NCBI GenBank assembly: GCA_039720395.1
Contig: JBBPBK010000128.1
Coordinates: forward strand, 124,001-188,000
Direction of reading: 5' to 3'
Origin: Liquidambar formosana
Taxonomy: Eukaryota; Streptophyta; Magnoliopsida; Saxifragales; Altingiaceae
DNA length: 64,000 bases
The position numbers were made by a program, and so were the translations under genes. This document shows positions 174-24,925 of the stretch, one piece after another. Positions within the stretch are counted from its first letter, which is position 1; each line of letters starts with the position of its first letter. The notes beneath the pieces were generated by a model. That model was not told where the DNA came from. It did no database searches and worked only from the letters and a program-made list of their open reading frames with translations.

Positions 174-180
174 CTCCAAC

Positions 181-910: not shown

Positions 911-993
911 AGGGGTGTCACTAGACGATAACCCAAAGGACCCGTTTCAGACAAAAGATCAAGAACATATTTCCATTGAGACAAAGAAATGCC

Positions 994-1646
994 CTAAGAA
1001 GAACGAGCAACTTCAATGCCAAGGAAATAACGAAGAGAACCAAGATCTTTAGTTTGAAAGTGGGTGCCCAAGTAGCATTTTAAATCAGCAATGCCCATAG
1101 AATCATCCCCATAGACAATATCATCAACGTAGACGACGAGAACAATAGTACTAGCAAAAGAACGACGAACAAATACAGAATGGTCAGAGAGAGAGCGTAG
1201 AAAACCATATACCAACACAACAGAACTAAAACGAACAAACCATAAGCGAAGGGACTGTTTTAGACCATATAATGCCTTCTTCAAGCGACAAACAAGATCC
1301 TCATGACCAACAACAACATAGCCAAGTGGTTGATCTATATAGACTTTTTCATGGAGATCACCATGAAGAAAAGCATTTTTTATGTCACGTTGGTATAAAG
1401 GCCAAGAGCGACTAACCACCACTGAGAATAAGATGCAAACAGAGTTAAGATGAGCAACAGGGGAAAAGGTCTCCAAATAGTCGACACCATAAGTCTGAGT
1501 ATATCCTTTAGCCACGAAACGCACCTTAAGGCGCTCAATAGAACCATCGGGAAGGTATTTGACATTGTACACCCAACGACAGCCGATAATGTGTTTCCCA
1601 GCTCCCATGTCCGATTATGATGAAGAGCACTCATTTCCTCATCCAT
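994..1646 (-). pseudogene. Copia reverse transcriptase domain (broken)
   Basis: The main open stretch (1608 down to 994, 204 residues) contains [62 protein letters not shown] and the catalytic box YVDDI. It finishes with the [11 protein letters not shown] motif and a stop. The upstream start of the domain ([16 protein letters not shown]) lies in a different frame at 1646-1560, so a frameshift separates them. The polymerase active-site aspartates are still present. Family assignment is secure; function is lost because the polyprotein is interrupted on both sides. Confidence 0.9.
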
Positions 1647-1649
1647 AGC

Positions 1650-2720: not shown

Positions 2721-3550
2721 AAAGTAGAAGTGCGACAAGGTCCCATATATCCGTATGAACCAAATTAAAAGATTCGGACTCACAACCATGAGGACTACTA
2801 GAAAAAGTGCTATGATGATGCTTGCCCAATTGACAAGCTTCACACTCTAAACGAGACACAAAACTCAAAGAGGGAATAGCATGCTTAAGGCGAGCCAATG
2901 ATGGATGACCCAAGCGAAAGTGCCACTGGAGAGATGAAACTACAGTAGTCAAAACAGATGAACAAGGAGAGAAAGAGCCACTGGAATCCAAAAAGTATAA
3001 GCCGTTCTTCTTATGCCCCAAACAAATCTTCTTCTTAGTCTTTGGATCCTTAAAAAATACAAGAGATAGGAGTAAAAAGAATTTCACATAGCAAAGCTTT
3101 TGTCAATTGACTAACAAAAAGCAAATTAAATGGAAAATTAGGAACATAAAGACTCGAAGGTAAAGATAAGGACGAGGTAGGATGAAGAACACCTTTACTG
3201 TGAACAAGCCGAGAAGAACCATCAGCTAACACAATATTATGATTAACAGGAGTCAAGTCAGAAAAACAAGAGGAGAAACTAGAGATATTGTTGTTAGCAC
3301 AAAAATTAATAACCCAAGGAACAGGAGAAGAGGCAACACATGCAAGATTACCTGAATGAGCTAAAGTAGCTATAGAAGAAGAAGGATAGGCAGAAGAAAA
3401 AGCAGTGCACAAATGCTGGACAAGATACTCACCAAGCTGAGGTCCAAGTGCATCACGAGAACCAAAGGTAGAGTCTGTAGAGTAAAGGAATCCATGACCA
3501 GGAAGTGGTTGTACGGGAGACGACGCAGAACCATCACTAACCTGATTCAC
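2719..3550 (-). pseudogene. Copia protease and integrase zinc-binding region (broken)
   Basis: The frame 3550-3050 covers the protease region and the following conserved NIVLADGSS ... LYVPNFPFNLLFVSQL block. The protease catalytic triad region reads WVINFCANNN, so the expected Asp-(Ser/Thr)-Gly motif is missing. A frameshift near 3060-3087 moves to the frame 3087-2719. That frame has the integrase HHCC-type region (HFRLGHPSLARLKHA ... CEACQLGKHH) followed by FNLVHTDIW, which holds the first catalytic Asp of the integrase core. Protease function is clearly lost. Confidence 0.85.
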
Positions 3551-3571
3551 ATAACTCGGCTTACTGTATTT

Positions 3572-4413
3572 CTAGAAACAATACGGTTTAGTATAATTAG
3601 TACCCCTACAATAATCACATTTTCGATCACCACGACCACTAGAACGACCACCTCCACGTGGTCCACCACGAAGACCACGACCTCCACGAAAACCACCACG
3701 GCCACCACTATTAGAAATCAAGGCGGTAGAATCCAAGGATGAAGGAGTAGGGCTAGGCAAAGTAGAAGAATTAGTCCCCAGTGAGGAGCACAACAAGCAA
3801 GAATAAGCATTGGCAGTGATAGGTAAAGTCTCACTGGCAAGAATCTGATCTTTAAACCCACGAAGATCAGAGTCCAAACCATACAATAGAGAAGCTATCA
3901 TAAACTCCTCCCAGTAACTTTTCTGCTGCTCCAAATCAGTCGTAAGAGGCCGATACAGTGATAATTGATCCCACAAGCTCTTAAGAGAACTATAGTACAC
4001 TGCTAATGATTTCCCTAATTGCTTAATAGTGAAAATTTATTCATAAAGCTCATAAACACGAGAAATATTACTCTTTTGGAAAAAAGACTCAGAAATAGAA
4101 TCCCAAATCTTCTTGGAGGAATCACAAAACTCAACGATGGCAACAATATGGGTTCCATACTGTGCCATAATCAGCCCATAATAGCCGAATCTTCACATAT
4201 CCAATCTTCATAGGTCGGATCAGTCGAATCAGGTGGATTATCTGTTATGTACTTCAATCGACGCTTACTATGCAAGTAAACTTGAACTGCATGTGCCCAA
4301 GACATATAGTTCACAACATCTAATTTCCTTGAAGTGATACACTTAGGGGAATCATCATCCTTAAGTGGTGGGAGTTTGATCACAGCCATAGTTGTAGACT
4401 TCTCTTCAGCCAT
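3572..4413 (-). pseudogene. Copia gag (UBN2-like) with damaged zinc knuckle
   Basis: The start is taken as the Met at 4413 (MAEEKSTTMAVIKLPPLK); a longer in-frame start at 4443 lacks family-like sequence. The N-terminal piece ends at a TGA near 4171 after SAIMG, and a frameshift follows. The frame resumes as YYSSLKSLWDQLSLYRPL ... FMIASLLYGLDSDLRGFKDQ (3999-3800), the UBN2/retrotrans_gag region. A Gly/Arg-rich stretch and a CCHC zinc knuckle follow (3640-3575). The knuckle reads CDYCRGTNYTKPYC, so the zinc-binding His is a Tyr. The gag can no longer be made whole. Confidence 0.88.
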
Positions 4414-5103
4414 CTCTAACAAGATACTATACCAAATTATCAATCAACAAGCCAACTTATGAAAACCAACTCAGAAGACAACACAAATCAGCCACAAGTC
4501 TCACAATTCAACAAACATAAACCACAAAGCAGCCACTGTGTATTCAAAAAACCAGAAACCTATCCCAGCCACTGTAGACTCTCAGAAAACCAAAAAAACA
4601 GCAACCAAAAAAATCTCAAAAATTACCAGAAAAATAGAGGAACCATCCAAGACAAGAAAGGAAGGCAGCCATGTCTTCCTTCACAGTGCTGAAGCCCCAA
4701 AAAGCCATTCAACGACGTATTCATGGCAATACACAAGCAACGGAAGACAACTGAAGGCAAACAACACCTCCTAGGGTCTAGTCGGCACCCATAGGACTCA
4801 TTCCAGCCAACAAGAAGTTCTCAAAAAGCCCACAAGAACAGATCCAAAAAATAGGGTCGAATCAAGCGAAAATCAAAGGAAAATAGAAAAATCATACCAG
4901 ATGGTATCAAACAATCAAATAAAAGGTACCATAATTCTCATAAAAATAGGGTGAGCCAAGGGAGAGAGTCGCCGGTTGCCGGAGGTCGTCCCGATGCTAA
5001 CATCATCAACCGGCAGCTAACGTCAACACACCGTAGCTCTCTGCCGAGGTCCTCTAGTGACGGTATGCAAAATAAAAAAACAATCCCAGGTATGTTTGAT
5101 TCT

Positions 5104-5115
5104 GCTCTGATACCA
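5104..5115 (-). other. Primer-binding site of the copia element
   Basis: The minus strand reads TGGTATCAGAGC, the complement of the 3' end of initiator Met-tRNA used by most plant copia elements. It sits a few bases from the inner edge of the right (5') LTR. The leader between it and the gag start (4414-5103) holds no other feature I can support. Confidence 0.9.
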
Positions 5116-5118
5116 AGT

Positions 5119-5330
5119 TGTGTGATAGATTTAGGGTTTAAGTGGAGGAGAAGAAAGAAGAAGAGAGAAAGAAGAGAAAGAGAAGGAGAAGAAAACCAAG
5201 CGTGGGATACAGGTCAGCAAAATCACATTACTCTAACCCAATCAGCCCTTATCATCTTAATAGTTAAGAAGTTACAAAAGTGCCCTTGTAACATAAACAA
5301 TAATATAATAACAATGCTAAGTTGATAACA
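5119..5330 (-). repeat. 5' LTR of the copia element
   Basis: About 212 bp, short for an LTR. The outer edge is 'gttgataaca' (minus strand TGTTATCAAC) and the inner edge is 'ttgtgtgatag' (minus strand ending CACA or ACACAA, so the inner edge is uncertain by 2-4 bases). A purine-rich 'agaagaaagaagaagagag' stretch in the plus strand is shared with the left copy. Confidence 0.88.
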
Positions 5331-6548
5331 AAGAGAATGTTTCACGTTTTGTGAAATGAACCCCTTTGGCTACTCGCCTATTCTTACCTAAGGCCGAAGT
5401 TTTTTATACATTTTTTTATTAGTCTAGCATTAAAAAAGGGTCAAAATATTATGCAAGGTGACTTTAAGGTTGATAGCTTTTATATGACTAGTGACTCCAT
5501 AGAAAATTCAATAGACTATAATCAAAAGTGGTGACATGCATAGCAAGAGAATAGGAAGCTTATGCCAACAAAAGCTTATCTATCGTTTTCCAAGAGTCTA
5601 ATATTTATAGTTCCTAGTGTGCTTTTGTTAAAGGTTGTAAGATCTTAGATACTGTTTTTGTGGCCAATGAGGCTGTCGATGATTACAGGCTTAGAGATTT
5701 GGAGGTTTTACTTCTTAAGGTAGATTTTGAGAAGGCGTATAATCATATGAGTTGGGAATTTTGGGATTTTATGTTGGAAAGTAAGGGCTTTGGAACTAGG
5801 TGGAGGAAGTGGATAGAGGTTAAAGGCTTCTACAAATTTTTCGATTCTGCTAAATGGTAAGCCTGGTAGGTGTTCCAAGCTTCTAGGGGGTTGTGGCAGG
5901 GACCTATTGTCCCCATTTTTTATTTACTTTGGTTGTGGATGCCTTAAGCAAAATGGTTAATAAGGCAAAGGAATTCAATTTTATTGAAAAGATCGTAGTT
6001 GGTCGGGAAGGAAGGAGTTCCCATTCACATTTGCTGTTTACTGATGATACTTTATTCTTTGTTTCTGAAAATAAATACATTCTGTTTAATTTTCAATCTA
6101 TCCTGTAGATTTTTTAGTTGGTCTCAGGGTGAAAGGTTAAACTAGCTAAGAGTTCTTTAGCAGGTACTGATAATTCTCAAGAGAAATTGGACAGGTTAGT
6201 AGGGGTGTTCGATTTTTCAATGGAGAATTGGCCCATGAAACATTTAGGGTTGCCACTGGGGGGATCTGAGAGTTGTTTCTTTTTAGGACCTTGTTATTGA
6301 TAAAGTTGGGAAAAGATGGGTGGAAAAAAGCCTTAATGTAAAGGGGGTAGACTCATTTTGGTTTAGTCTATTTTGGCTAGTTTGCCTACTTACTATATGT
6401 CTATTTTTAGATTCCCTGTAAGCATGGCATTACGAACTAAGATATCGATGGGAAAATTTTTATGGGAAGATCTAGGGAAGGGAAGAATGATCACTTAATG
6501 ATCTAGGCCTAAAAGGGGGTTTGTAGTGGGAAACATTACTGCTAGGAA

Positions 6549-7013
6549 CAGTGTTACCGGGATCTCTTGACCCCACTTCAAACTGTGATCCAGGATCCTT
6601 GACCCAAAATGCGATTCTTTTGCAATCCAAAACTCCATTTTTAGCGTCCTGAAATATAAAGGAGACAAACACACACACAAATACTTGTATTCACAAAGTT
6701 ACAACTTTAACTCCCAAATTAGGATTATTTACAATTGTATAAGACTCTCAAAGTGCTATAAAATGTTAGTAAATTCTATATATAATTCGATTTCCAAAAT
6801 CATTCAATATTTGAATCTAATTAAAGTTTTAATTTTCATAATATTTTGAAAGAATCTCTCTCTCAATAAATGGGGAATAAATAGATATACATACATACAT
6901 ACCCCCTAACGTACTAAAGCGAACCAACTAAGCCTACCCCCTCACATGCCACGTATGAACAAAGCATCGTACCCGTACCCGTACCACATACCAGAATGAA
7001 CCACGCTCCAGGT
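6549..7013. mobile_element. Unclassified insertion inside the LINE
   Basis: LINE coding sequence stops at 'aacattactgctaggaa' (6532-6548) and resumes at 'aacattggctaggaaaa' (7014-7029), an imperfect direct repeat of about 15 bp. The inserted 465 bp have no coding similarity I can see. They include CA/TACA simple repeats and a triple 'gtaccc' near 6970. The long imperfect duplication suggests a SINE- or LINE-mediated insertion, but I cannot identify the family. Confidence 0.5.
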
Positions 7014-7676
7014 AACATTGGCTAGGAAAATTGCATTGCTAGGTAAATGGCTTGGGAGATTTCCTATTGAAACTTGAAAGTGAGTCCTTATGGCACTTGG
7101 TTATCAGAAGCAAATATGGTTTGTAGGATAATGGATAGGATTCTCTTAGTAATGTTACTGTGTTAGGGTTTTTGGCAGAAGTCCTAAGATGTTTATTTCC
7201 CAAGTTGTATCTTTTTGTTAGTCATACATCTTTGGTGCTAGGTAATGTCGAAAGAATTCATTTTTGGGAGGACGTGTGGAGGGATGGTTGTCATTTTTCA
7301 ATCTATTTCCCTCGTTTGTACAACTTATTTCAGGCTCGTGGTTACTTCGTTCGAAGCTTGGTTGTTTCACGTTCTGTTCCTATTAGTTGGGATTCCAAGT
7401 CTTTAGAAATCTTAACGACAGAGAAATTTGTGAGTTGTCTTCTCTGTTATATTTGCGTAGGGTGTTGTTCTTAGGCCCTCAATTCCGGACAGTAGATTGA
7501 GGTCCCATCATTCTTCAAGAATGTTTTCTTATAAATCTTTCTTGGAGACCATAAATGATGATTCGAATATTCTTCCTTTTCTTTTGTTTCAGATGATTAA
7601 GAAATCTAAAGCTCCTTTAAAGCTGCAGATTTTTGTGCGGTCTGTTGCTTATAAGAGAATTAATACTAATGATGTT

Positions 7677-8395
7677 TAGGTGTGAATGTGTGATCATGGG
7701 TCAATTCGATTCAGGTTTGGGGTCCACCTGCAATCCACCCTAATAATATTGAGTGAGCTGATTTCTCCCCTACACCTGCCCACATGATCAGGAAATGTTG
7801 ACCTGCTTACCATATCGGATTGGCAGGCAGGTTGCAGGTGGGTTGTTAGATTGCGCTTCTAGAACCCTTTTTTTTTCTTTTCTTTTTTGAAACATTTCAA
7901 CTTAGTGAAATTAAATAAACAAAAGTTAACTCTTATTACTTTCATTCTCCTATATGTTCTGCAATACCTGTTTAGCAGGAAAAAAAAAAAAAAAAAAAGT
8001 GCAGCACCACTTTAATTAAGCCTATGTATATACACACACATACATAAATATGTATGTAGAGTATCTAAAAGGTTATTAAATAAGAAAAAGAGCAAGTCAT
8101 ATATATAATAGTCAGTAGGTTATTAAGAAGAGTTAACTCTTTATTTTATTTTATACTAGGTATTGAATTAGATGTCAACATGTGGCCAAATGTATGAATT
8201 TTTGTTATATTGCAGGCAGCGGAGGTACAATCATTTTTTCAATTTCACACCCATGAACCCCGCCCACAAACTTGCACAAAAATAAAAATTGAAACCACTA
8301 CCTGCTCACCTAGTCATTTGGGATCGCCCATTGAGCTACAAGTTGGTTCGGTTCAGGCAGGTGGGTTTGTCTTTGCAGACCTTCAAGCAGCCCTA
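7677..8395. mobile_element. hAT-type MITE nested in the LINE
   Basis: The element is flanked by 8-bp direct repeats, ATGATGTT (7669-7676) and ATGATATT (8396-8403), one mismatch. Its ends are TAGGTGTGAA and, read inward from the right, TAGGGCTGCT. Eight-base duplications and TAGGG-like ends fit hAT elements. Removing it joins the LINE reading around an N-D codon pair, which supports the boundaries. No transposase is seen. It contains an A-run at 7980-7998 and simple repeats. Confidence 0.7.
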
Positions 8396-9095
8396 ATGAT
8401 ATTTTTCAGAAGAGGAGGCCCACCTTCTCCTTGCAACCCTAGTGGTGCATCATGTGCAGGAGGGAGGCTGAGAGTATTGATCATTTGTTTTTGCACTACA
8501 AAGTGGCTAGTTGTTTATAGAAAAGGCTGTTTCAAGTGGCAGGGTTGAGTTGGGTTCCCCTGTGTTTGTGTGTTGACTAGTTTGCTATTGACTCTTTTGG
8601 GTTTGGGAGGGATAGGCAGGGTGTGGTATTTTGGCAAGGTGTGATTCTAGCTTTTTTTTGGGTTCTATGGTTGGAAAGAAACGCGAGAATTTTTGAAGAT
8701 AGATTTGAGATTGGAAAGCTTTTGGATAGGGTTGTGTTCTTAGCTTCCTTTTGGGTTTCGATGGCTAAGGAATTTTGGGGCGTTTCTTTGTTTGTCATGA
8801 AATCGAATTGGAGAGCTATTTGTGGATTGTAGTATTTTCTTGTTTATTTTTGTTTTCCTTTTCTCCTATGAGGACTTCTCCTCCTTCACGTATAATTCTT
8901 TTCTTTCATTTTTTTACAAAATTTATTGTTGCCTATAAGGTAAAATAAATAAAAACTAAGGCCTACTGGTTTCCTTGTTAAACCAGTCACCATTTGCAAG
9001 TCTAACGGAAAATAAGAGACTCGATCATGCAAGCATTTGCATTTTTATAATCTCATGAGCTCTAAATGTTGATAGTTGTTAATCCCTTCTTGCAG

Positions 9096-9170
9096 GTAAT
9101 GAGGAAACACTTGATAGCCATCATGAATCTAGTGGATGGATTGCGTTTTCCTGAGCGAGCATTTAATGTA
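9096..9170 (+). CDS. Alpha exon, copy 1 (unrecognised protein)
   Basis: A 75-nt open block between a good acceptor ('ttcttgcag') and a good donor ('gtaagt'), both in phase 0. It encodes 25 residues with RKHLIAIMNLVDG in the middle. It belongs to a repeat present six times in the array. No family is recognised. The exact length, kept in five copies despite base changes, argues for coding history. Confidence 0.5.
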
Positions 9171-9535
9171 GTAAGTGTACTTGCTAGCACTTGATATTGT
9201 TTTATATAAATAAACCAAATTTCTTTTGAATTTAGATATGAAGTGGCCATACAAAAGAGAGTGATTGTACGGTAGGTAGGCATTTGCATTACTACTTGGA
9301 GGCTTACATAAACTTAGGGGCAAACCCCTTTCTAAATTTGTCCTAAGAGAGATCCTGACTCACCTATTTTACTTGACTATTCTAGGAATATGAAAAGACA
9401 TCCTCTCTAGATTTTACTCAGGCTGCTTGATTATAAGATTTTCTCTAATTACTAAAAGACATATCGAATAGAAAAAAAATCTAAATTTTGTAGGCAATTC
9501 TAATATGTTTAGATTTCAAAATTATTATGGAACAG

Positions 9536-9712
9536 GAAGAAGAAGAAGAAGAAGAAGAAGAAGAAGAAGACGAAGAAGACGACGAAGATGAAGAAGTAAG
9601 TGAAAAATCTAAAGAAGCCAACATAGAAGACATGGAGAAGGAAGAAAATGTAAGTGCTCTAGCAGTTGAACATGAAATGTTTGAAGAAGCATGCCGAATG
9701 ACCTCACAGGAG
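9536..9712 (+). CDS. Beta exon, copy 1 (poly-Glu exon)
   Basis: A 177-nt block (59 codons, phase 0 at both ends) after 'ggaacag' and before 'gtattc'. It begins with a long Glu run made by a GAA repeat, then D/E-rich sequence, VSEKSKEANIEDMEKEEN, and ends EACRMTSQE. The C-terminal half aligns with the other beta copies. It looks acidic and disordered or coiled-coil-like. The donor here is 'gtattc' rather than the 'gtaatc' of the other copies. No known family. Confidence 0.5.
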
Positions 9713-11190
9713 GTATTCAATGTCAACCCTTTAATTTAAATCTCATCCGAAGTAAATATGATGAAATTTTTTCAACAATGAAATTTTTTTTTGTCTTTTC
9801 GGAAAAGTAGGCCTACTAACATGGATTGCAATTTGAGAGGGAAAAGAAAGTAGCACATATGTAAAATAATAAAAGAGTCTGGCTAGCATTAGGGTGCATC
9901 ATTGCTTTTTGCAATAGCAGACACGAGGACACACAATCACATGCCTGGACATATAGGCCTCATATGTTCTTGTAGACTGGTCTCCCCATGTTCCAGTGTC
10001 ACGGATTGTCAAAAAAGCATCCATTTTTCATAATAGGTTTGACTCCAACAAATTCATCGAAGTAAGCATATTCTCAACTCAAAACAATTTAAGGTTGAGA
10101 TGTGTAAACCAATATTTTGAAAATGGAACAGTTTAAAACTGGAAATGGGACCTAAATGAGGGTCAATGGTTCAACTTCTGTGTCAACCAAAGAGAATGAT
10201 GACAACAACATGTTTACATATATATAGAATGTTTCACATTTGGTGTAATGTCTCTACCTATTCTTAGACTAAATTTTCCAAATTGTCTAGCAATAGAAAA
10301 AGGATCAAAATGCTGAGCAAAGAGACTCCAAAATTTTCCATTTAGATAGTTTTTATATGACTAGTAATGTTGCTAAGTAGTTTGGGGAGGGGGGAAGTGC
10401 GAGTATGCTATTGCACTCCAATAAGTAAAACTGATAATTATACTTGATACAAAGCCTAGTTCACAATCTTTGAATCATTTTTATGGATAGTTACAACTGA
10501 TTTGTCAACATTTTCCACACAATGTGAAGGCCTGTAGAAGAGAATGTGATTGTTCTCATCAGAAATTAACATACTAAATAAATCTGAAGTTAAAACGAAA
10601 TGCAATTATTGATTCAATTATAACTCAAAGCAGTACCACTGTCCAGAGAACCGGAGTTTTTCTTACTGGGTTTAGATAATCATTTTTTTCCCCGCTATTT
10701 TCTTATGTACGATCTTATCTAAAGTTGATTTTAGATCTTATAAAGAAATTCCACTTATTGGTTCACTTGTAATGTTGCCCACTTAAAGGAAATGTTTCAC
10801 ATTTGGTGTAATGAACCCTATGGCTATTCTCACCCAAAGCTGACTTTTTAAAGATTTTCTTCTAGCCTAGCATCAGAAAAAGGGTCAAAATAGCTGGAGA
10901 AATTTTATATGACTAGTGATTCCATGGACAATTCATAACTCAGATAGAAAGACAAGTGGTCATATATTTGGTCAGGGAATAGGAAGCTTGGAAGCTTGTA
11001 CTAACAAAAGCTTCAATGTTGTTTTCGAAGAGTTCCTGTTATTCATACACTGAGATTTTCTAGCCTCCTTGTTACCCCGGTCACCAGTTGCAAGATCTCG
11101 TGGAAAAATAAGAGATTCTTTGTCAAGGAAGTGCATTTTTAATATCTCATGAACTTCTAATATTGACAGTTACTAATTCTCTTTTTGTAG

Positions 11191-11265
11191 ATAATCAAGG
11201 AACACTTGAAAGCGATAATGAATCTAGTGGAAAGACAGGATTTGCACAAGCAAGAGCTTGGCATA
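11191..11265 (+). CDS. Alpha exon, copy 2 (unrecognised protein)
   Basis: A 75-nt open block, acceptor 'tttttgtag', donor 'gtaagt', phase 0-0. It encodes IIKEHLKAIMNLVERQDLH followed by KQELGI. Both splice signals look usable. Confidence 0.5.
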
Positions 11266-11565
11266 GTAAGTGCACTTGCTAGAACTTGACATTGGCTTTT
11301 ATAAATAACCAAATTTCTTTTCTATTTAGATATGAGACTGCTATATAAAAGAGAGAATGATTGTATGTATGTAGGCTCTTACCTAACAAGTTGCAGGAGG
11401 AACCCTTTTTATACTTGTCCAAGGAAAGATCAAGACTCAACTAATTTGAACAAGGACTGATTGGTTATGGGATTTTCTGGATTTTTCTAAAGTACATATA
11501 ACACAAAATCTAGATTCTCTAAACAACTCTAATATTTTTAGACTTTCAAAATTACTCTCCAACAG

Positions 11566-11574
11566 AAAGAAGAA

Positions 11575-11606
<32 letters not shown>

Positions 11607-11760
11607 AGAGGAAGAAAAGGAAATGGAAGAAGTCAGTGAAAAATCTGAAGAAGCAAACATAGATGACCAGGAGAGGGAAGAAAATATAAGGTCTCAAGCA
11701 ATCCAACATGAAATGTCAGAAAATGCAAAAGAAGCAGCATACCAAATTAGCTCACCAGAG
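11566..11760 (+). CDS. Beta exon, copy 2 (poly-Glu exon)
   Basis: 195 nt, 65 codons, phase 0-0, acceptor 'ctccaacag', donor 'gtaatc'. It opens with a Glu/Lys-rich run, then VSEKSEEANIDDQEREEN, then IQHEMSENAKEAAYQISSPE. The longest of the beta copies; extra length comes from GAA repeats and an added EAA-like segment. Confidence 0.5.
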
Positions 11761-12788
11761 GTAATCAATGTCTACCTCTTTAACCTAAACCTCATATGAA
11801 GTGAATATAACTGGAACTTTGTTAAAAATTAAAACATAAAGTTTATTTTCTATCATTTTGGAAAAGTACATGGATTGTGGATTGAAAAGAAAAAGAAACT
11901 AGTACATATGTAGAATAATAAAAGAGTCTAGCTAGCATCCATCATTGCTAAAAAGCAATGACGGACACGAGGATACACACACACACATGCCCCTTACATG
12001 TGTCTGCATGTCTTGGTGTTCGTCATTGCTTTTGCAATGATAAATTGTCATGAATGCATGCATATTCCATAATAGGTCTAACTCCGGCAAATTCAACAAA
12101 CTAGTCAAATCCTCAACTCATAACACAATTTAAGGTTGAGATGTGTAAAAAAATATTTTAAAAATTGGACAGTTCAACAAACTGAAAAAGGGACCTGGAT
12201 GAGGCCATGAGGGTCCACAGCTCAACTTCCATGACGACCAAAGAGAACCATGACATCATCATGTTGTCATATATAAAGAATGTTTCACATTTGGTGTAAT
12301 GACTCTGGCTAGTCTTGAACAAAGCTGAAGTTTTTATAAATCTTCCTTTTTGTCTAGCAATTTAAAAGGGGTCAAAATACTGAGTAAAGAGACTTTGAAC
12401 TTTTTCCATTTGGATAGTGTTTGTCTGACCTATAATGTTGCTAAGCAGTAAGGGGCAGGTGAATACAAGTGTCCTATTGCACTCCACAAAGTGTAAACAA
12501 ATGAATAAATAAATAAATTCATTGATAATTACAGTTGACAAAAAGCTTCGTTCACAATCTTCAAATCATTTTTAAGTGATTGTCCTCATAAGGAATAATC
12601 AATAGTTGCCAAAAAGATAGAAAGGTGTGCCAGCAGGAATGTGATTGTCCTCATAAGGAATAATCTTGTATAATAAATTAAAGGTTCAACGCAATGCAAA
12701 TATCAATTCAATTATAACTAAAAGCAATACCATATACACTGTCTAAAGAACCGCAGTTTTATTGTTTCTGATGTTAGATCTTCATTTC

Positions 12789-12804
<16 letters not shown>

Positions 12805-12826
<22 letters not shown>

Positions 12827-13205
12827 TGTTGATAAGGTAAATATGTATTGATGAACAAAAAAGGGCAAAGCCCATGTACATAAGTCATATACAGTGACTA
12901 AGTATGACCCCCTCTAAAGCCTAAATGAATCCACAAAATTAATAAAAGAAAAGTTAGTAGCATTGGTATGACTAGAATACCAAACAAACAAGGATTTGAG
13001 GAAAAGTGATTTGAGAATAATAATATCCTTCTCCACCCCATCAAACGTCCTAGCATTCCTTTCCTTCCATATACACCACAAAATAGCATGCAGAGCCATG
13101 CGCCATATAACTTTAGCTTTTTTACAGCCCCCCTTAAAACTCCATCCCACCAAAAGATCGTAAGTAGAGGATGGAAGCACCCAATGAACTCCACACAAGT
13201 TAAAA
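12805..13205 (-). mobile_element. LINE 3' fragment (zf-RVT end), minus strand
   Basis: The minus strand encodes LLVGWSFKGGCKKAKVIW and then ALHAILWCIWKERNARTFD, the LINE ORF2 C-terminus, ending with a stop near 12898. The T-run at 12809-12828 is the poly(A) tail on the minus strand. The rest of the LINE is absent. Inserted at the end of array unit 2. Confidence 0.8.
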
Positions 13206-13208
13206 AAT

Positions 13209-13240
<32 letters not shown>

Positions 13241-13241
13241 T

Positions 13242-14230
13242 GTTTTATCACCAACAAAGAGAAAATTTTATTAGATAAAACAGAAAATTGAAAACTTTGC
13301 AAAAGAGGTGCAATTCAATTGATTCTAATATGAAAATTACAAGGTATATAAATACTAGAAACCTTATACAAAGGAAATACCAATAATACCCCTAATATAA
13401 GATATATCTATACTACCTATAAAAGTCTGTATCTCAAAAAAACTTTTGATTGACCATTCTACCCTCATTTTAATTTATAAATACAATTTTAGCCTTCGTA
13501 ACAAATGAAAGTTAGATTTTAACTCAACTCTTAACAAATGAAAGTTAGATTCTTACTCAGATTCCTAAATAATATATAAGAATACAAACTCTTTGATTAT
13601 TCCGTTTTATGGGGAAAAAAATAATTTATAAATGTATATCTAAAGGGTTTTTTAACTTTCATTGACAATTTTAATTAAAAAAAAAATGTACTTTTGAATT
13701 TTAAATATTATCTTTTATGAAAAAAATATAAAATCTTTAGGTATTTATTACTTTTTAAATAACTAATATTATTTTAAAATATTCACATGCAACGCACACT
13801 TGCTATATCTAGTATATAAAGATATCCTAACACCCCCCCCCCCTCCTCAAACTCATGATGTGACCGTAAGAAACATCGAGAGTTTGTCAAGCAGAAACTA
13901 GAAGCACGAGACGGTGTGGGACTTTGTAAAGAAGTCTGCCAATTGCATAGTAGAGGAAACAAAAGGCAGGGCAGCCCAGCTGAAGATGATAACGCACAAA
14001 ATGATAGTCAATCTCAATGTGTTTAGTGAGTTCACGAAAGAAAAGATTATGCGCAATATGAATAGCATTCATGTTGTCACAATACATCAGAGTAGGAGAC
14101 AATGATGGAACACCCAAATCGGTAAGCAACCAGCGCAACCAAACGGTCTCAGAAGCAGTAGTAGCCATAGCCCAATACTCGACCTCATCAAAGGAACAAG
14201 CAAGCAACGACTGTTTATTTCTCTGTATGT
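13242..14230 (-). mobile_element. Copia 3' remnant: RNase H end plus LTR
   Basis: The minus strand from about 14205 to 13887 encodes copia RNase H (EYWAMATTASETVWLRWLL, then YCDNMNAIHIAHN, then LTKHIEIDYHFVR). A C-rich run on the plus strand at about 13833-13850 is the polypurine tract, and the LTR starts at 13832 (minus strand TGTTAGG). The LTR is split by a Helitron at 13407-13812. Its far end is not defined; the T-run at 13213-13241 lies next to it. Only the last part of the element remains. Confidence 0.75.
13407..13812 (+). mobile_element. Non-autonomous Helitron inside the copia LTR
   Basis: It starts TCTATACTACCTATAAAA and ends ATATCTAG, lies between host A (13406) and T (13813), and has no target duplication. 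Near the 3' end a short stem (GCAA ... TTGC around 'gcaacgcacacttgc') precedes CTAG. These are the Helitron hallmarks. It shares both termini with the minus-strand element at 43494-44743, so they are one family. No Rep/helicase is encoded in 406 bp. Confidence 0.8.
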
Positions 14231-14299
14231 ATATATGATATATATACAAAGATATCTTGACAAAAATCACAAAAGGAAGAGGACAAGATGTCATCAAAA

Positions 14300-14645
14300 T
14301 AAAAAGTACAAACTAAAAAACTACTACATATTACAAACCAACCTCAATTTTGTTCAATAATAAACAAAGGAATTCCCTCAAAGACTTTAGAAGCCAATGC
14401 CCTAAACCTTTAAAACTTACACACTCCCACAACCCATCTTCCACATCAAACTTATCCTCAAACACCCTAGCATTCCTCTCTAACCAAATAACCCAAAACA
14501 TAGCCATGATAGCACACCTCCAAAGAGTAATTGCTATCTTATTCTTCCCAAAACCACCATAATCTATCTCAAACATGCTAGAACAAGACCAATACCCAAC
14601 ATACTTCAACCCTTTGAAAATACAAACATTCCACTGTCGATTCAC
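14300..14645 (-). mobile_element. LINE 3' fragment, different family from 12805-13205
   Basis: The minus strand encodes GGFGKNKIAITLWRCAIMAM followed by FWVIWLERNARVFED and LLKSLREFLCLLLNK, a LINE ORF2 C-terminal segment close in style to the end of the LINE at 5612-8955 (WVLWLERNARIFED). The fragment lies just before array unit 3. A near-repeat 'cgattcactta' occurs at 14638 and about 14669. Confidence 0.75.
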
Positions 14646-15105
14646 TTACAATGTTTTTTTGAACAGATCGATTCACTTATAAAGTTACAGAGCTAAAGTG
14701 AATGTCTCACATTTGGTGTAATGAACCCCTCTGGCTATTCTTCCCAAAACTAAAATTTTAATAAATTATTCTTTTTGCCTAGTATTAGGAAAAGGTTCAA
14801 AATATTGTGTAAGGACACTTTAAGCTTGATAGCTTTCATATTATCAATGATCTTCACAACACTGTGATCAAGAGACAAGTGATAACATATGTAGCACGAG
14901 AATAGGAAACTTGTACCAACGAATCATTCATATTGTTTTCAAGAGTTCATATTCATCAACTTGAGGTTTTCGATTTTCATTGTAAAACTAGTCACCACTT
15001 GCAATGTCTCATGGAAAAATAGGAGACTCTTGGTCATGCAAGCATTTGTATTTTCAAAATCTCATGAGCTTCAAATGTTGACAGTTACTAATTTCCTTCT
15101 TGCAA

Positions 15106-15180
15106 ATAATTAGGGAACACCTGAAAGTGATAATGAATCTAGTGGATGGGTTGAGTTTGCATGAGAGAAAACTTGGTGCA
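15106..15180 (+). pseudogene. Alpha exon, copy 3, splice sites lost
   Basis: The 75-nt frame is still open (IIREHLKVIMNLVDGLSLH then ERKLGA). The acceptor is 'ttgcaa' instead of 'ttgcag' and the donor is 'atatgt' instead of 'gtaagt'. It would not be spliced normally, so this exon copy is probably dead even though its frame survives. Confidence 0.5.
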
Positions 15181-15627
15181 ATATGTGCACTTACTAACAC
15201 GTGATATTGGCTTTTAAAAGTAAACCAGAATCTATTCTATTTAGTAATTAGATGGTTGTTTCTTTTCTATTTATTTATTAGATGGGTTTTTTTTTTTTTT
15301 TTGGTGGTGCTGCAAATGTTTGTTTCTTCTCTATTTAGATATAACTGTACAAAAGAGAGTGATTGTACGGTATCTAGGCTCTTTCCTTACTACCTGGAGG
15401 CTTAATGGAGGGGACCATTTATACTTGTCCTAGGAGAGATCTAGGCACAATTAATTTATTCAACTATTCTTGGAATGCAAAAATCTAAAAGAAATCATGT
15501 CAAGATTTTAGGAGGACCACTTGATTATAGGAATTTCTAGATTTTTCTGAAGTGCATATTGGATACATAAAATCTAGATTTTCTAGACAATCCTATTACT
15601 TTAAATTCTCAAAATTATTCTTTACAG

Positions 15628-15798
15628 GAAGATAGAGAAGAAGATGAAGAAGAGGAGAGGGAAAAAGAAGAAATAAGTGAAAAGAATAAAGAAGAAAATG
15701 TAGAAGAGGTAGAGAGGAAACAAATTATAAGTGCTCAAGAAATTCAACATGAAATGTCAGAAGTAGTAGGAGTGGCATACCAAATCAGCTCGCCGGAG
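15628..15798 (+). CDS. Beta exon, copy 3
   Basis: 171 nt, 57 codons, phase 0-0, acceptor 'tttacag', donor 'gtaatc'. It begins EDREEDEEEEREKEE (the Glu run is interrupted), then ISEKNKEENVEEVERK, and ends AYQISSPE. Splice signals are intact, unlike the alpha exon of this unit. Confidence 0.45.
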
Positions 15799-17383
15799 GT
15801 AATCAATGTCAATCTTTTTAACCAATACCTCATCTGTGAATATAACAAGAACTTTGTTCAACCAAAAAGTTTTTTTTTTTTTTTTTTTTTTCTGTCTTTT
15901 GAAAAGTAAGTCCTACTGACATGGATTGCAACTTAAGACAGAAAAGAAACTACTAGGTATGTAAAATAATAAAAAGTTATGGGTAACATCAATGTCCATC
16001 ATTGCTAGACATGAGGACATGCAGACACATGCCCCAACATGCGCACGGTGCACCCCATATGTTTTACAAACGGGTATCGATGTGTCTATGTGTTCACCAT
16101 TGCAAAAGCAATGACATACTGTCATGAAAGCATGCAATTTCCATAATAGGTTTGATTCCGACAAATTCAACAAAGTGATCATATTCTCTACTCAAAACAC
16201 AATATAAGGTTGAGATGTCTGAAGGAATATTTTAAAAATCGGACTGTTCAATAAACTGAAAAAGGGGCCCAGATGAGGGTCAATGGATGAACTGTTGTGT
16301 CAACCGAAGAGAACCACAACATCATCATGTGTCCAAGTTGTACTCTTCTTTCTGATTAATACAATTTGTTTCTTATCCAAAAAAAATCAGGTTATCATAA
16401 ACATAGAATGCTTCGCATTTGCTGTAATAACTCTAGCCAATCTTACACAAAGCTTAAGTTCTTAATAACTTTTCCTTTTTGTCTAGCAATAGAAAAGGGG
16501 TAAAATTAATGAGTAGGGAGACTTCAGGATTTTTCATCTGAATAATGTTTTTACCACCTAGCCTGTAATTTTGCTAAGCAGTAAGGTGGGGAGGGGGAAA
16601 ACAAGTGCCCTATTGCACTCCAAAAAGGGAAGAAAAAAAAAATTGACAATTACAACTGACATAAATCCTAGTACACATCTTCGAATCATTTGTATGTGAA
16701 GGTAGTACTAGTATGTCAACAGTTGCCAAAAGATGGAAAGGTTTGTAGAAGAGAATGTGATTGTCCTCATACAGAACAATCTTGCTTAATAAATTTAAAG
16801 TGAAAACAAGATGCAATTATCGACTCACTAATAATTGAAAACAATACCATTGACTAGAGAATCGAAGTTTTAGTTTTTGATGTTAGATCTTTTTTTGGGG
16901 CTATATTCTAATGTAACCAAAGCTAATGAAACCTATTAAAAAGCAATATTTATTAACAATTCACTAATAACGTTAAACAGTTAAAAGAGTGTCTCACATT
17001 TTGTTTAACAAAACCCTCTGGTATATTTTACGTATTCCCTGGTTTAATATAATGATTCACTTGTAAGGGGACTTTAAGCTTGATAGCTTTTAGGCGACCA
17101 GTGATTCCAAGGAAAATTCAAGAGACAAGGGTCAATAGGCAAGTGGTGACATATATAGAAAGAGAATAGGAAGCTTGCACCAACAATAGCCTTTATATTG
17201 CTTTTCCAGAGTTCATATTCATCAAAAACTGAGGTCCTTTGATTTGCTTGTTAAACTGGTCGCCACTTGCAAGGTCTCATGGAAAACAAAAAAAAACAAA
17301 AAGGCTACTGGTCGTACAAGTATTTGCATTTTCAAAATTTCATAAGCTTCAAATGTTTATAGTTACTAATTCCCTTCTTGCAT

Positions 17384-17458
17384 GTAATCAAGAAACACTT
17401 GAAAGTATTAATGAATCTACCGTTTGGGTTGGGTTTGCATGAGCAAGAGCTTCAGCTG
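17384..17458 (+). pseudogene. Alpha exon, copy 4, acceptor lost
   Basis: 75 nt, open (VIKKHLKVLMNLPFGLGLH then EQELQL), donor 'gtaagt' intact, but the acceptor AG is AT ('cttgcat'). It could only be used with another acceptor. Confidence 0.45.
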
Positions 17459-17823
17459 GTAAGTGCACTTGCTAGCACTTGACATTGACTTCATAAATAA
17501 ACAAAATTTCTTCTTTCTTTTAGATATGAGATGGCTATATGAAAGAGAAAGTGACTGCTGTAGGCTCTTGACCTCTTACCTAGAGGCTTACATGAACTGA
17601 GGGGGAAACCCCTTTTCATACTTGTCCTAGGATAGATCAAGACTCACCTAAATTACTCAACTATTCTTGGAATACTGAAAGAAAGAATCTTCTCTAGATT
17701 TTAATAGGACCCCTTGATTATAGGATTTATAGATTTTATAAAGTGTACATATTGGATACACAAAATCTAAACTTTGTAGACAATTCTAATTTTTTTTAGA
17801 TTTTCAAAATTATTCTCCAACAG

Positions 17824-17988
17824 GAAGAAGAAGAAGAAGAAGAAGAAGAAGAAGAGGGAAAGGAAAAAGTAAGTGAAAAATCTAAAGAAGCTAACGAAGA
17901 TGAGCGGGAGAGGGAAAAAAATATAAGTGCTCAAGCAATTCAACATGAAATGTCCAAAGAAGAGGCATACCAGATAAGATCACTAGAG
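17824..17988 (+). CDS. Beta exon, copy 4 (poly-Glu exon)
   Basis: 165 nt, 55 codons, phase 0-0, acceptor 'ctccaacag', donor 'gtaatc'. A pure GAA run gives a long Glu tract, then KEKVSEKSKEANEDERERE, then IQHEMSKEEAYQIRSLE. Shorter than copy 2 by ten codons, with differences in whole codons. Confidence 0.48.
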
Positions 17989-19140
17989 GTAATCAATGTC
18001 AACTGCTTTAAGCAAAACCTCATATGAAGTGAATATAACCAGAACATTGTTCAACAATTCAACCATAAACTTTATTTTTTGTCTTTTTGGAAAAGTAAGG
18101 CCTATTGACTTGGTTTGCAAAATGACAGGGAATACATAAAATAATAAAAGAATCCGGCTAGCATTAGGATGCATCATTGCCTTTAGAATGACGAATACAA
18201 GGACACATGGACACATGGCCTAACATGTGGACCCTAACATGTGGGCCCCATTTGTATTTATGGACAAGAGTCTGCATCTCGCAATGTCTGTTATTCTTTT
18301 GCAATGCTAGATTGTTATGGAAGTATGCATTTTCCATAAGAGGTTTGACTAGGGTAAATTCAAAAAAGTGATTATTTTCTCAAATCAAAATACTCTTTTT
18401 TTCTTTTTTTTGATCAGCAAAGAGAATTTTCATTAAAATGATGAAAAAGAATACAATCAAATTTGCAGGAAAAAGCTGCCCATCAAAACACAATTTAATG
18501 TTGTTTTAAAAATCGGACTATTCAATAAACAAGAAAAGGGCCCTAGATGAGGAGGTTCAAGGGTTCAACTAATGCATCAAACGAAGAGAACCATGACATC
18601 ATGACATCATCATGTTGTCATAAATATTGAATGTTCATATTTTTCATAATGAGTCTAGCTATTTCTACACAAGCTTGAAATTTTTATAAATTTTCCTTTG
18701 TCTGGGAATAGAATTATAGAAAAAGGGTGAAAATAAGTAAGGAGACTTCAAGCAATTCCATTTAGATAGTGTTTATATGGCCAGTAATGTTGCTAACCAG
18801 ATAGGAAAGGGGGGTACACATGCCTTGTTGCACTCCAGGAAGTAAAATAATTATAATTACAGTTAGCACAAAGTGTAGTTCACAATCTTCAAACCATTTT
18901 TACGTGAAGATGCTACAAATGCATCAACGGTTGCCAAACATGGAAAGGTCTGCAGATAGGAATGTAATTGTCCTCATAAGGAATAATCTATCTTAAAAAA
19001 TTCAAAGTTAATATGAGTTGCAATTACCGATTCACCTATAACTGAAAGTAATACCACTGCCAAGAGAACCAAAGTTTTAGTTTAAATCAATCCCCAAAGC
19101 TAATGTTGGATCTTAAAAAGCAATAATACCGATTATTGAT

Positions 19141-19589
19141 TCTATTAATATTTGGGTCGGATTGTGACCCGTACCCAAGGACCTAAATATCAGTATCGAT
19201 GGATATACCAATGGTCCAAAAACACGGATATATTGGTTATATCGATGAATATATTGAAAATATCGATATCGATTTACAGATAGGATGGATATAATTAGTT
19301 AAACACAGATATTTTTATTGAAACTTTAGGAAATAATTATTTAGACTCTAATAAACAATCTAGCATCAAAATATTGCAATTTAAATGTGTATAATACAAG
19401 TATGTGTTGTGTAGGGTATAAAAAATGTGATATACAATAATACCATATACCAATAGTTGTTGAATTATATATGATATATGTGTGTTAGTGTGTGTGTGTG
19501 TGTGTGTGTAGGGTACAAAAAATGTGATATACGATATACCATATACCAATAGTTAATACCATATACCAATAGTTGTTGAATTATATATG

Positions 19590-19630
<41 letters not shown>

Positions 19631-20272
19631 CCTTTAAGCCTTTAAAGTAAAAAACGATCTGCAATTTTGTACCCGATATAATCGATAAGTACCGATATTC
19701 TTGATATATCATCGATATATCCACGATATTCTACTGAAACGAAATCACCATAGAATTTCGTATTGACGTGCACTGATACATGGATATATCGCCGATATTT
19801 CCTATATTTAAGACCATGCCCGTACCCATGATCTGCCCACATGCCGGCGGTAGATCTTATAAGTTTGTTTCCTATTATGAGTAGGTTTTCTAATGTGAAT
19901 AGGAACCTTAGTCCTACTAGGACTCATAGGAAACTATATAACAGGGCTCTCTTCTTTTATTGAGAGAACTAATGAGCACTCTCTACAACAGCCCTCTTCC
20001 GTCTCTCTCTCTAGCACTCTCTCTACGACATCACCATGGCCTTTGGGATTTGGAAGTGTGGAACAAAGGGAGAACTCTAGTAGCGATCCGTACAACACAC
20101 ACAGCGATATAGAACCATGGTCTAGTTCATGTTCAAAGCATTTGGATTGCATACAGCAACATCACGGGCTTATAACAACAAGCAACGGTCCTTTTCTTGG
20201 GTCTCTTCCGCAAGAGGTAAATCTTAGACCCGTATTTGTATGCTATATGCATCACTTAGAGTGTATTTACAG
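19141..20272. mobile_element. Insertion between units 4 and 5, probable LTR-like and ATCGAT-rich repeat DNA
   Basis: Unit sequence breaks at 'gattctatt' (about 19139) and resumes at 'gattcacttataaagtt' (about 20274). The insert has (a) 19160-19300 and 19670-19830, inverted-looking tracts rich in 'cgatatatcgat' and 'gacccgtaccc'; (b) 19376-19620, a duplicated block around 'accatataccaatagttg' ending in (TG)n runs; and (c) 19860-20230, a TATA-bearing stretch ('aactatataacaggg' at 19931) with CT-rich leader and a possible donor 'gaggtaaat', resembling the end of a retrotransposon LTR. Families not identified. Confidence 0.45.
19490..19626 (+). repeat. TG microsatellites within a local duplication
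   Basis: Two (TG)n runs, at about 19487-19508 and 19590-19626, each follow 'gttgaattatatatgat'. The block around them is duplicated with the copies next to each other. Confidence 0.85.
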
Positions 20273-20806
20273 ATTCACTTATAAAGTTACATGGTTAATT
20301 AGGCTATTTCATAATAAAAAGTTGATACGACTTAATATACCTGTTTGGGCCATCCACCGAATGGATTAGACTTTTAGGTTGGAAACTTAAGATGGTGTAA
20401 TGACCCCTTTAGCTTTTCTCACCCAAAGCTAGAGTACTTATATACTTTTCGTTTCGTCTAGCAACAGAAAAGGGTCAAAATACTGTGCAAGGAGACTTCA
20501 AGCTTTTCCATTTGGAAAGCATTTTTCATGACTAGTGATTCCATGGACAATTTATAAGATTGAGATCAACTAACAAGTGACATATGTAGCAAAAGAATAG
20601 GAAGCGTGTAACAACAAAAGCTTGTATACGTTTTCCAAGATTTCATAAATTAATCAAAAAGTGAGACGTTTCCCATTTCCTTGTTAAATCCATCACCACT
20701 TACTAGGTCACATGGAAAAATAAGAGATTCTTGGCCATGCAACCATTTGCATTTTCAAAATATTATGAGCTTGAAATGTCAACGGTTACTAATTCCATTC
20801 TTGCAG

Positions 20807-20881
20807 GTAATCAGGAAACGCTTGACAATGATAAAGAACCCAATGGATAGGTTGGTTTTCGGAAAGAGGAAGCGTTGTGTA
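20807..20881 (+). CDS. Alpha exon, copy 5
   Basis: 75 nt, open, acceptor 'ttcttgcag' and donor 'gtaagt' intact. It encodes VIRKRLTMIKNPMDRLVFG then KRKRCV, the most diverged protein sequence among the intact alpha copies, and basic where the others are mixed. Confidence 0.45.
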
Positions 20882-21248
20882 GTAAGTGCACTTGCTAGCA
20901 CTTGATATTAATTTTTATAAATAACCCAAATTTTTTTCTATTTATATATGATATGGCTGTACAAAAGAGGGAATGACTGTACATAGGCTCTTGCCTTTAT
21001 ATTTGGAGGGTTACGTGTAGTTAGGACTTAGGAGGAAACCCCTTCTTATACTCGTCCTTGAAGAGATCTAGACTCACCTAATTTACTCGACTACTCTTAG
21101 AATACTAAAATACATCATCTCTATATTTTACGAGGACCACTTGATTATAGGATTTCCACTTTTTTTCTAATGTACAAAATGGATAGGCCAAATCTAGATT
21201 TTGTAGACAATTCTAATTTTTTTTATTTTGACAATTATTCTCTCGCAG

Positions 21249-21418
21249 GAAGACAAATGTGAGGACGAAGAAGAAGACAACGAGGAAAAGGTGAGTCAAA
21301 AATCTGAAGAAGCAAATGGAGAAAAGGTGGAGAGTGAGAAACTGTAAGTGCTTAAGCAATTCAATACGAAATTTCAGAAGAAGTAGAAGAAGAGGCATAC
21401 CAAATAAGCTTACAGAAG
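21249..21418 (+). pseudogene. Beta exon, copy 5, frameshifted
   Basis: 170 nt, not a multiple of three. It begins EDKCEDEEEDNEEKVSQKSE and meets a TAA at 'gaaactgtaagtgc', where the other copies have one more base in this stretch. Acceptor 'tcgcag' and donor 'gtaatc' remain. The Glu run is short. Confidence 0.5.
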
Positions 21419-21960
21419 GTAATCAATGTCAAACTCATTAACCAAATACTCATATGATGTGACTATAATAAGAACTTCATTCGACCAAAAATTTTGTTTT
21501 TCATCTTTCTAAAAAGGTAAAGTCTACTGATGTGGATTGCAACTTCACAGGGAAAAGGAACTAGTACGAGTGTAAATAATATATCCTGTTAGCATTATAG
21601 TTCATCATTGCTTTTACCAATGACAAACATGAGGACATGCAGACACATGCCCCAATATGTGGGCCCTATATGATTTTTCAGACAGGTGGCTGCATATCCC
21701 AGCGTTCGTCATTGCAAAAGCAATGAAGGACTATCATGAAAGAATGCATTATCTCTAGTAAAATGGCAAGCTTTGACCCAAACAAATTCGACAAAATGAT
21801 CATATTCTCAACACAAAACATGATTTAAGTTTCATATGTGTAAACCAATGTCTTAAAAATCAGAAAGTTGAATAAACTAGAAAAGGGACCTGGATGGAAG
21901 TCAACGGTTCAACTGCCATATCAACCAAAGAGAACCGTGAAATCATAATTTTGTCATAAA

Positions 21961-22875
21961 TGCAGAATGCCTCACATTTCATGTAATGAATCTGGAAATT
22001 CTTACACAAAGCTGACGTTCTATAACTTTTTCCCTTCTTCTTCTTTTTTTTTTTTTTTTTTTTTTTTTTGGTCTAGCACTAGAAAAAATGTCAAAATACT
22101 GAGTAAGCAGACTTGAAGCTTTTCCATTTGGATAGCATTTATATGGCCAGTGATTCCATGGACAATTCATAAGATTGAGATCAAGTGAGAAGTGCCAGTG
22201 ACATATATAGGAATTAGGATGACAATATATAGGAAGCTTGTACCAACAAAAGCTTCTATGTTGTTTTTCAAGATTTCACATTCATCAAAAACTGAGGTTT
22301 TTTTTTGGTATCCTTGCTTAATCAGTCACCACTCACACGGTCTAATGGAAAATAAGAGACACAGTTATGCAAGAATTTGCATATTCAAAAACTCATGACC
22401 TTCAAAAGCTGATAGTTACTAATTCCTTATTGTATATAATCAGAGAAAGCTCAAAACTATTATATCCAGATGACAGGACAGTGCAGAAATAGTGTATCAC
22501 AAAATGAAAAAAGTTGAAAAAAAAAAATTATAATAATCTGAAGAAGACGACGAAGTGGAAGAAGAAGTGGAGATGGAAGAAGATATTTGTGTTCAAGCAA
22601 TTCAACATGAAATATCAAAAGAATCAGAAGAAGAGGCATAACAGACTCTCTGGTTCACTGGAGGTCATCAATGTCAACCTTCATAACCAAAACCTCATAT
22701 GGCTAAAACTTTGTTCAACCATAAGGTTTATTTTTATCTTTTTTGAAAAGTAAGACCTACTGACGTGGTTTGGATTTAAGAAGGAAAAGGAACTGACAAG
22801 TACATGAAACAAGAAAATGGCAAGGTTTGACTCATAACACAATTTAACATTGAATACATAAACCCAGTTAAACCT
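21961..22875 (+). repeat. Array unit 6, truncated hybrid unit
   Basis: The second-leader type sequence of unit 5 (about 21963, 'gcctcacatttcatgtaatg') passes straight into first-leader type sequence near 22140 ('gccagtgattccatggac'), skipping the spacer. The alpha relic starts at 22436 with a lost acceptor ('tgtat'). The inter-exon intron is missing: a beta relic (about 22538-22663, with in-frame TAA in 'gaggcataacag') follows within 30 bp. The unit ends around 22870 ('aacacaatttaacattg'). Confidence 0.75.
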
Positions 22876-24470: not shown

Positions 24471-24614
24471 TGAGAAGGATTCAAGGTCAAACTGTAAGAA
24501 TACTATGTCTAAAATTTGATGTAGAGAGTGAGTTATGAAGAGCAGGCGAGCTGTTTGGAAGAATGAAAGGAAAATATGATCCTAGAAACAAATGTAGCAC
24601 TAAAAGATTTAATT

Positions 24615-24653
<39 letters not shown>

Positions 24654-24925
24654 AGGATTCAAGGTCAAACTGTAAGAATACTATGTCTAAAATTTGATGT
24701 AGAGAGTGAGTTATGAAGAGGAGGCGAGCTGTTTGGAAGAATGAAAGGAAAATATGATCCTAGGAACAAATGTAGCACTAAAAGATTTAATTACAATATA
24801 TATTGTAATTACAATATATATTGTAATTAAATCTTTTAGTGCTACATTTGTTCCTAGGATCATATTTTCCTTTCATTCTTCCAAACAGCTCGCCTCCTCT
24901 TCATAACTCACTCTCTCTCTATATA
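24471..24925. repeat. Direct plus inverted duplication forming a large fold-back
   Basis: A block starting 'tgagaaggattcaagg' at 24471 is repeated at 24649 (178-bp period, separated by a (TA)n run at 24619-24649). The second copy is then followed by an inverted copy of its last ~105 bp (about 24810-24915), centred near 24805 in 'tacaatatatattgtaatt' repeats. The inverted arms appear almost identical, so a transcript or single strand would form a long hairpin. Confidence 0.85.

Follow-up and report, generated by a model that had tools for sequence, protein, structure and literature searches.

A tandem array of exon pairs at positions 5331-22875 of a 64,000-nucleotide stretch of the Liquidambar formosana genome (positions 124001-188000 of contig C112, hereafter the window) is very probably the tail that follows the leucine-rich repeats (LRRs), at the C-terminal end of a predicted RPS2-like NB-ARC-LRR resistance gene, as judged from the exons that precede it on the same strand. 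Receptors of this kind (nucleotide-binding leucine-rich repeat receptors, NLRs) determine which pathogens a plant resists; TIR-type NLRs have post-LRR regions, and such regions are poorly understood. An earlier, sequence-only reading of the window had assigned the array to no recognised family. The repeated peptide itself indeed matches no curated family that we searched, but the gene is of a familiar kind in unusual form, an NLR with NB-ARC and RPS2-like LRR sequence upstream and in frame, and not a member of an unknown family.

The evidence for this assignment begins to the left of the window, where the same reading had proposed that the sequence be extended. There, on the same strand of C112, a 1015-codon open reading frame (ORF) encoding NB-ARC and RPS2-like LRRs (the head) is followed by three LRR exons, then by exons of the two repeated types in the order alpha, beta, alpha, beta, alpha, then by transposon sequence including a copia element, and finally by the units of the window; with the three left-hand alphas, the locus holds nine alpha copies. 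The last of the LRR exons ends at C112:112389, and the alpha that comes next lies at C112:115689. The NB-ARC domain of the head scores 127.7 bits against PF00931 (cut-off 23.5, E 5.9e-37), and the head carries a P-loop (GMGGVGKT) at 205 and an MHD motif at 471. Across related loci, Pfam placed NB-ARC above its cut-off in all five heads scanned and LRR_RPS2 (PF23247) above its cut-off in all eight proteins scanned; in the five heads it returned no TIR match at E <= 0.001, and coiled-coil families were likewise unmatched. The second to fourth LRR exons (LRR2-4), like all tail alphas, have V or I as their first residue, and the phase is the same.

Within the window, six head-to-tail units share a leader, an alpha block and a beta block in fixed order and orientation, as had been noticed from the letters alone and as direct-repeat search, self-comparison and alignment all bear out. 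What repeats is a genomic unit of about 2.1 kb, comprising the alpha block, the beta block and introns; a leader query gives nine hits at E <= 1.7e-13 plus one weak hit (E 0.46), or about two per unit. With introns included, identity is 72.4-76.2% among units 1-5 (10 pairs) and falls to 63.2-68.0% between unit 6 and the rest (five pairs). Because the mutual distances among units 1-5 are nearly equal, and the inner branches of their tree are short and poorly supported (36-53), these units look like the product of a burst. The earlier description of the units as free of insertions holds only once insertions are subtracted: a stretch resembling a long interspersed nuclear element (LINE) splits unit 1, unit 2 is followed by an insertion of about 1.9 kb and unit 4 by one of about 1.3 kb. 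Nor does the array start at 5331, the limit originally given to it; a copia element ends at 5330 and further units lie farther left, beyond the window. The features are as follows.

1-5330, reverse strand: copia-type long terminal repeat (LTR) element entering from the left edge, with an RVT_2 Pfam match at 994-1611
5331-10226, forward strand: unit 1 (leader, alpha 1, beta 1), split by the LINE-like insertion
5598-8971 (limits approximate), forward strand: LINE-like insertion, separating the two halves of unit 1 in the alignment
9096-9170, forward strand: alpha exon 1, 75 nt, phase 0-0, AG and GT intact, open
9536-9712, forward strand: beta exon 1, 177 nt, phase 0-0, AG and GT intact, open, acidic
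10227-12277 (limits approximate), forward strand: unit 2
11191-11265, forward strand: alpha exon 2, 75 nt, AG and GT intact, open
11566-11760, forward strand: beta exon 2, 195 nt, AG and GT intact, open
15106-15180, forward strand: alpha exon 3, open frame, acceptor AG lost (CAA), donor lost
15628-15798, forward strand: beta exon 3, 171 nt, AG and GT intact, open
17384-17458, forward strand: alpha exon 4, frame open, CAT in place of the acceptor AG, intact donor, another AG in frame 9 nt inward
17824-17988, forward strand: beta exon 4, 165 nt, AG and GT intact, open
20807-20881, forward strand: alpha exon 5, 75 nt, AG and GT intact, open
21249-21418, forward strand: beta exon 5, 170 nt, frameshifted, with a TAA after 32 codons (21345-21347) that ends the predicted protein
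22436-22641, forward strand: unit 6 (terminal), degenerate alpha, beta starting at about 22540 with its frame ending in TAA at 22639-22641

In units 1-4 every alpha is 75 nt and every beta 165-195 nt, all multiples of three, and the exons begin after AG and end before GT save at alpha 3 and alpha 4. Damage is uneven: units 3, 4 and 6 have lost the alpha acceptor, units 3 and 6 also the alpha donor, and unit 6 is degenerate; the TAA of the terminal unit stands in the identical place in the paralogue on contig C7. The beta exons contain GAA microsatellites (9536-9596, 11567-11616 and 17824-17855), whose length changes shift the acidic run by whole codons. The copia LTRs (1-173 and 5165-5330) are 89% identical, and the right one ends directly before the unit-1 leader, and the element lies within an intron of the tail; the RVT_1 match of the LINE-like insertion is weak and below cut-off.

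Units 2 and 5 each have a strong fold-back hairpin at a matching position downstream of beta (11935-12045, z -8.2; 21590-21735, z -6.3), and sequence related to this site is present in all five complete units. The right arm has the form CATTGC-TTTT-GCAATG; units 2 and 4 carry TTTT as its four-base spacer, and units 3 and 5 have AAAA there. We considered and rejected an RNA hairpin conserved in each unit, as the site has decayed in units 1, 3 and 4 (z +1.2, -0.9 and -1.6) and the stretch is less conserved than its surroundings; Rfam, run over the whole window, returned no family at gathering score. Given strong folding in units 2 and 5 only and this low conservation, we read the site as an old fold-back element that was copied along with the unit.

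Reading splice sites onward from the C112 head yields a path, of our own choosing, of 16 complete phase-0 exons and part of a 17th, amounting to 2121 open codons over about 46 kb. It takes in the head and LRR2-4, then the five tail exons left of the window, and within the window both exons of units 1 and 2, beta 3, beta 4, alpha 5 and partial beta 5, with alpha 3 and alpha 4 skipped for their lost acceptors. Each of the 16 complete exons is a multiple of three and stop-free, with AG acceptors and GT donors throughout, and the alpha/beta tail makes up the last 554 of the predicted 2121 residues. An in-frame open path of this kind, side by side with damaged exons, agrees with the original suggestion of a long gene that grew by exon-pair duplication, here with partial decay. 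Because alpha and beta exons are both phase 0, the frame would be kept when tandem duplication adds a whole pair, when a deletion removes one or when a failed splice site causes one to be skipped.

A second line of evidence comes from searches with the repeated peptide. The joined alpha/beta peptide had a single match, P0001 (L1049_024271 of L. formosana; E 9.9e-14, one of 5791 candidates), and a chimeric query again found P0001 alone (one of 5891 candidates); these searches covered proteins of about 157-499 and 204-648 residues, a range outside which full-length NLRs fall. P0001 is annotated as a 247-residue hypothetical protein encoded on contig C5. Its residues 1-42 are the end of the last LRR exon as found on C3, C5, C7 and C112, and the order thereafter is alpha, beta, alpha, short beta, alpha, alpha, with alpha/beta boundaries that coincide with the splice sites of the window. 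As a predicted protein P0001 is thus a bridge between LRR end and tail, and since its first 42 residues are an RPS2-like LRR exon end, its gene model starts inside an NLR. The annotation of P0001 as a small protein would be expected if the tail were a separate gene that merely adjoins NLR genes, as would isolated tail copies on contigs C1 and C15 that show no LRR match in the 10 kb fetched for each. Such a separate gene is nonetheless very unlikely in view of the LRR end carried by P0001 itself and of the head and tail that stand in order on one strand at four loci.

Several other identities for the peptide were tried. Pfam gave no family at cut-off for the alpha/beta peptide or for P0001; a CHAD domain in P0001 (E 7.5e-4) was set aside as below its family cut-off, and NCBIfam had nothing near a cut-off for P0001. 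CENP-C was absent from the Pfam matches of the alpha/beta peptide and P0001 at E <= 1, and the upstream exons are those of an NLR. A known solved fold was likewise rejected, one unit having no match at E <= 10 and P0001 only marginal ones (the best at E 0.029, to response regulators, over residues 167-200). An orphan family without known relatives was rejected once NLR exons had been found upstream. In the open-access literature on exon duplication, post-LRR regions and L. formosana NLRs we found no recognisable description of this tail.

The association of tail and head recurs elsewhere in the genome. A search with the alpha region gave at least 40 scored copies among 92 candidates on six contigs (C5 19, C3 11, C112 7, C7 1, C1 1 and C15 1), 38 of the 40 lying on C5, C3, C112 and C7, the contigs with NLR heads (counted by contig, not each copy being checked). 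A head of about 1000 codons stands upstream of the tails on the same strand in four of the five long regions (C112, C7, C3 at 18.5 Mb and C5 at 5.77 Mb). Splice sites were read for 33 of 36 alpha rows in the five regions, two partial rows having been dropped and two merged: AG and GT are both present in 25 of the 33, and 22 are in addition in frame and stop-free. The number and spread of the copies, two of them isolated, together with the fold-back-site sequence in all five complete units, are what one might see in a non-coding or transposon-like tandem repeat with open frames by chance. We regard such a repeat as extremely improbable, since nearly all scored copies share a contig with an NLR head, the indels keep the frame (see below) and the exon ends agree exactly with P0001. 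The C1 and C15 copies contain no minus-strand ORF of 120 codons in their 10 kb each.

Comparison of C112 with C7 bears on the age of the array. Between their heads, identity is 94.3% at the DNA level and 88.5% at the protein level. The C7 tail has two units. The first is a full unit whose nearest match on C112 is the second left-hand unit (88%, 82%); directly after it comes the terminal unit (90%, 86% against that of C112), so that about 26.7 kb is missing relative to C112 between the two. In the first C7 beta, a stop in frame precedes the usual donor. As divergence among the C112 units exceeds that between C112 and C7, the array appears to be older than the split, with C7 having lost units, apparently by deletion between units.

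To assess coding constraint, we counted indels in the 10 pairs among units 1-5 (unit 6 excluded, terminal gaps trimmed), pairs that are not independent of one another. Flanks and introns contain 157 events (27, 30, 41 and 59), 119 of them not a multiple of three; beta contains 14, of which four, all of size 1, are not a multiple of three; and alpha contains none. The four size-1 events we take to be the unit-5 frameshift in its four pairings. In a neutral-decay simulation (star tree, eight settings), the chance of keeping both frames in at least four of six units was 3.9e-6 to 8.8e-4; that of keeping alpha alone in at least five of six was 0.02-0.13, a weak result. The pooled ratio of nonsynonymous to synonymous rates (dN/dS) for alpha and non-acidic beta in units 1-4 was 0.60 (bootstrap 0.38-0.96), the tail sets gave 0.51 for alpha 2 (0.19-1.69), 0.45 for alpha 4 (0.20-0.91) and 0.46 for beta 1 (0.16-1.52), and the heads gave 0.52 (C112/C7) and 0.75 (C5/C3); a short-beta set contributes no value, one of its four rows having been read out of frame. 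To judge from these comparisons, coding constraint is real but loose.

A number of observations weigh against the array being an NLR tail in use. Taken singly, neither exon type has a dN/dS that excludes 1 (alpha 0.68, 0.37-1.42; beta 0.55, 0.30-1.15); alpha has a p-distance of 0.323, compared with 0.262-0.299 for the introns, and is therefore not better conserved; codon position 1 is the most variable in alpha, ahead of position 3; and the alpha-1 set elsewhere in the genome has zero synonymous and 12% nonsynonymous differences. The predicted path skips two alphas, ends in a frameshift and crosses an intron that carries transposons and measures about 11.8 kb. Neither the C112 nor the C7 head showed the GLPLA pattern, the fifth long region (C3, 42.6 Mb) has its head on the far side of the tails, in fetched DNA that excluded the tail-upstream sequence, and there are the isolated C1 and C15 copies already mentioned. 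One account of such damage is that the exons were once those of the NLR and that the array in the window is now dead, the receptor ending after its LRRs or within the first left-hand units. This would suit the splice sites lost in units 3, 4 and 6, the unit-5 frameshift, the copia and LINE-like insertions, the absence of a beta after the third left-hand alpha, an alpha conserved no better than introns, and a C7 paralogue that is down to two units with a stop in the first beta. Against it, an open path with canonical splice sites still reaches unit 5, and indels that keep the frame, like a pooled dN/dS below 1, suggest that coding constraint persisted once the units had separated. We therefore hold a decayed tail to be a serious possibility, with somewhat less than an even chance of being correct.

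If instead the array is a working tail, with the gene transcribed and spliced along the path, the product would be a receptor about 2121 residues long, its final 554 residues made up of alpha helices and beta linkers. The predicted tail contains 207 acidic and 69 basic residues. A structural model of P0001, built on a 10-row alignment, is weak (mean pLDDT 59.8, pTM 0.33), and at this low confidence it places helices over the alpha stretches and leaves the acidic stretches without structure. In the alphas of units 1-5 of the window, 5-6 of 7 core positions are hydrophobic in the best register, which was chosen to maximise this number. We infer from the model a tail in which short helices follow one another on acidic tethers beyond the LRRs; alphas would be 25-residue amphipathic helices and betas 55-69-residue acidic, disordered linkers. 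Such a tail might most plausibly serve as a surface of variable length for ligand contact or for electrostatic regulation of the receptor, a role that, at a guess and by analogy, could be comparable to that of the post-LRR regions of TIR-type NLRs; a copy number that differs between paralogues would be expected for a receptor part under changing demands. Taken as a whole, the idea of a new type of NLR with copy-number-variable modules of helix plus acidic linker, gained and lost by exon pairs, serving recognition or self-control and differing in number between paralogues (nine alphas on C112, two on C7), is one that we put forward tentatively and consider doubtful. If exon pairs can be added, lost or skipped in frame, the gene family would offer a natural test case for the tuning of a receptor tail. 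Public annotation can also cut such genes, as with P0001, annotated as a small orphan although it starts at an LRR exon end.

We note in passing several other features of the window. A perfect 216-bp palindrome with two 108-nt arms and no spacer (24701-24916) adjoins a 178-bp unit present in 1.9 copies at 98% (24471-24803); the two are either very recent or an assembly artefact. A two-exon F-box gene at 45330-46542 is identical to all 281 residues of L1049_001685, and a partial second F-box copy lies at 40984-41303, in pieces 67-88% identical. On the reverse strand, ORFs at 57079-62184 resemble, by eye, a Ty3/gypsy-type element broken into several frames, and a 356-codon ORF at 51685-52752 has a DUF4283 match below cut-off (24.7 versus 27.2 bits).

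Among known systems, the grass CENP-C genes have duplicated exon pairs (9-10 and 11-12) in two or three copies (PMC549713). As here, a pair of small exons, one of them acidic, was tandemly duplicated in the middle of a fast-evolving plant gene; CENP-C, however, is a different protein in which the partner exon is basic, whereas the gene described here is an NLR. Ma, a TIR-type NLR with a single duplicated post-LRR (PL) exon (PMC4851768), shares a post-LRR part that duplication of exons has enlarged into a very large C-terminal region; in the L. formosana genes no TIR was found in five heads, the unit is an exon pair (helix plus acidic linker) and the repeat has no Pfam match. P0001 shares with the C112 gene an LRR end followed by an alpha/beta tail, but belongs to another locus, on C5, has a shorter tail and is annotated without an NLR head. 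There is also a likeness to RPS2-like NB-ARC-LRR proteins of the coiled-coil NLR (CNL) type, which have the same NB-ARC, P-loop, MHD motif and LRR_RPS2 repeats spread over several exons; what sets the gene described here apart is that its last LRR is followed by a tail of tandemly duplicated alpha/beta exon pairs with a predicted length of 554 residues.

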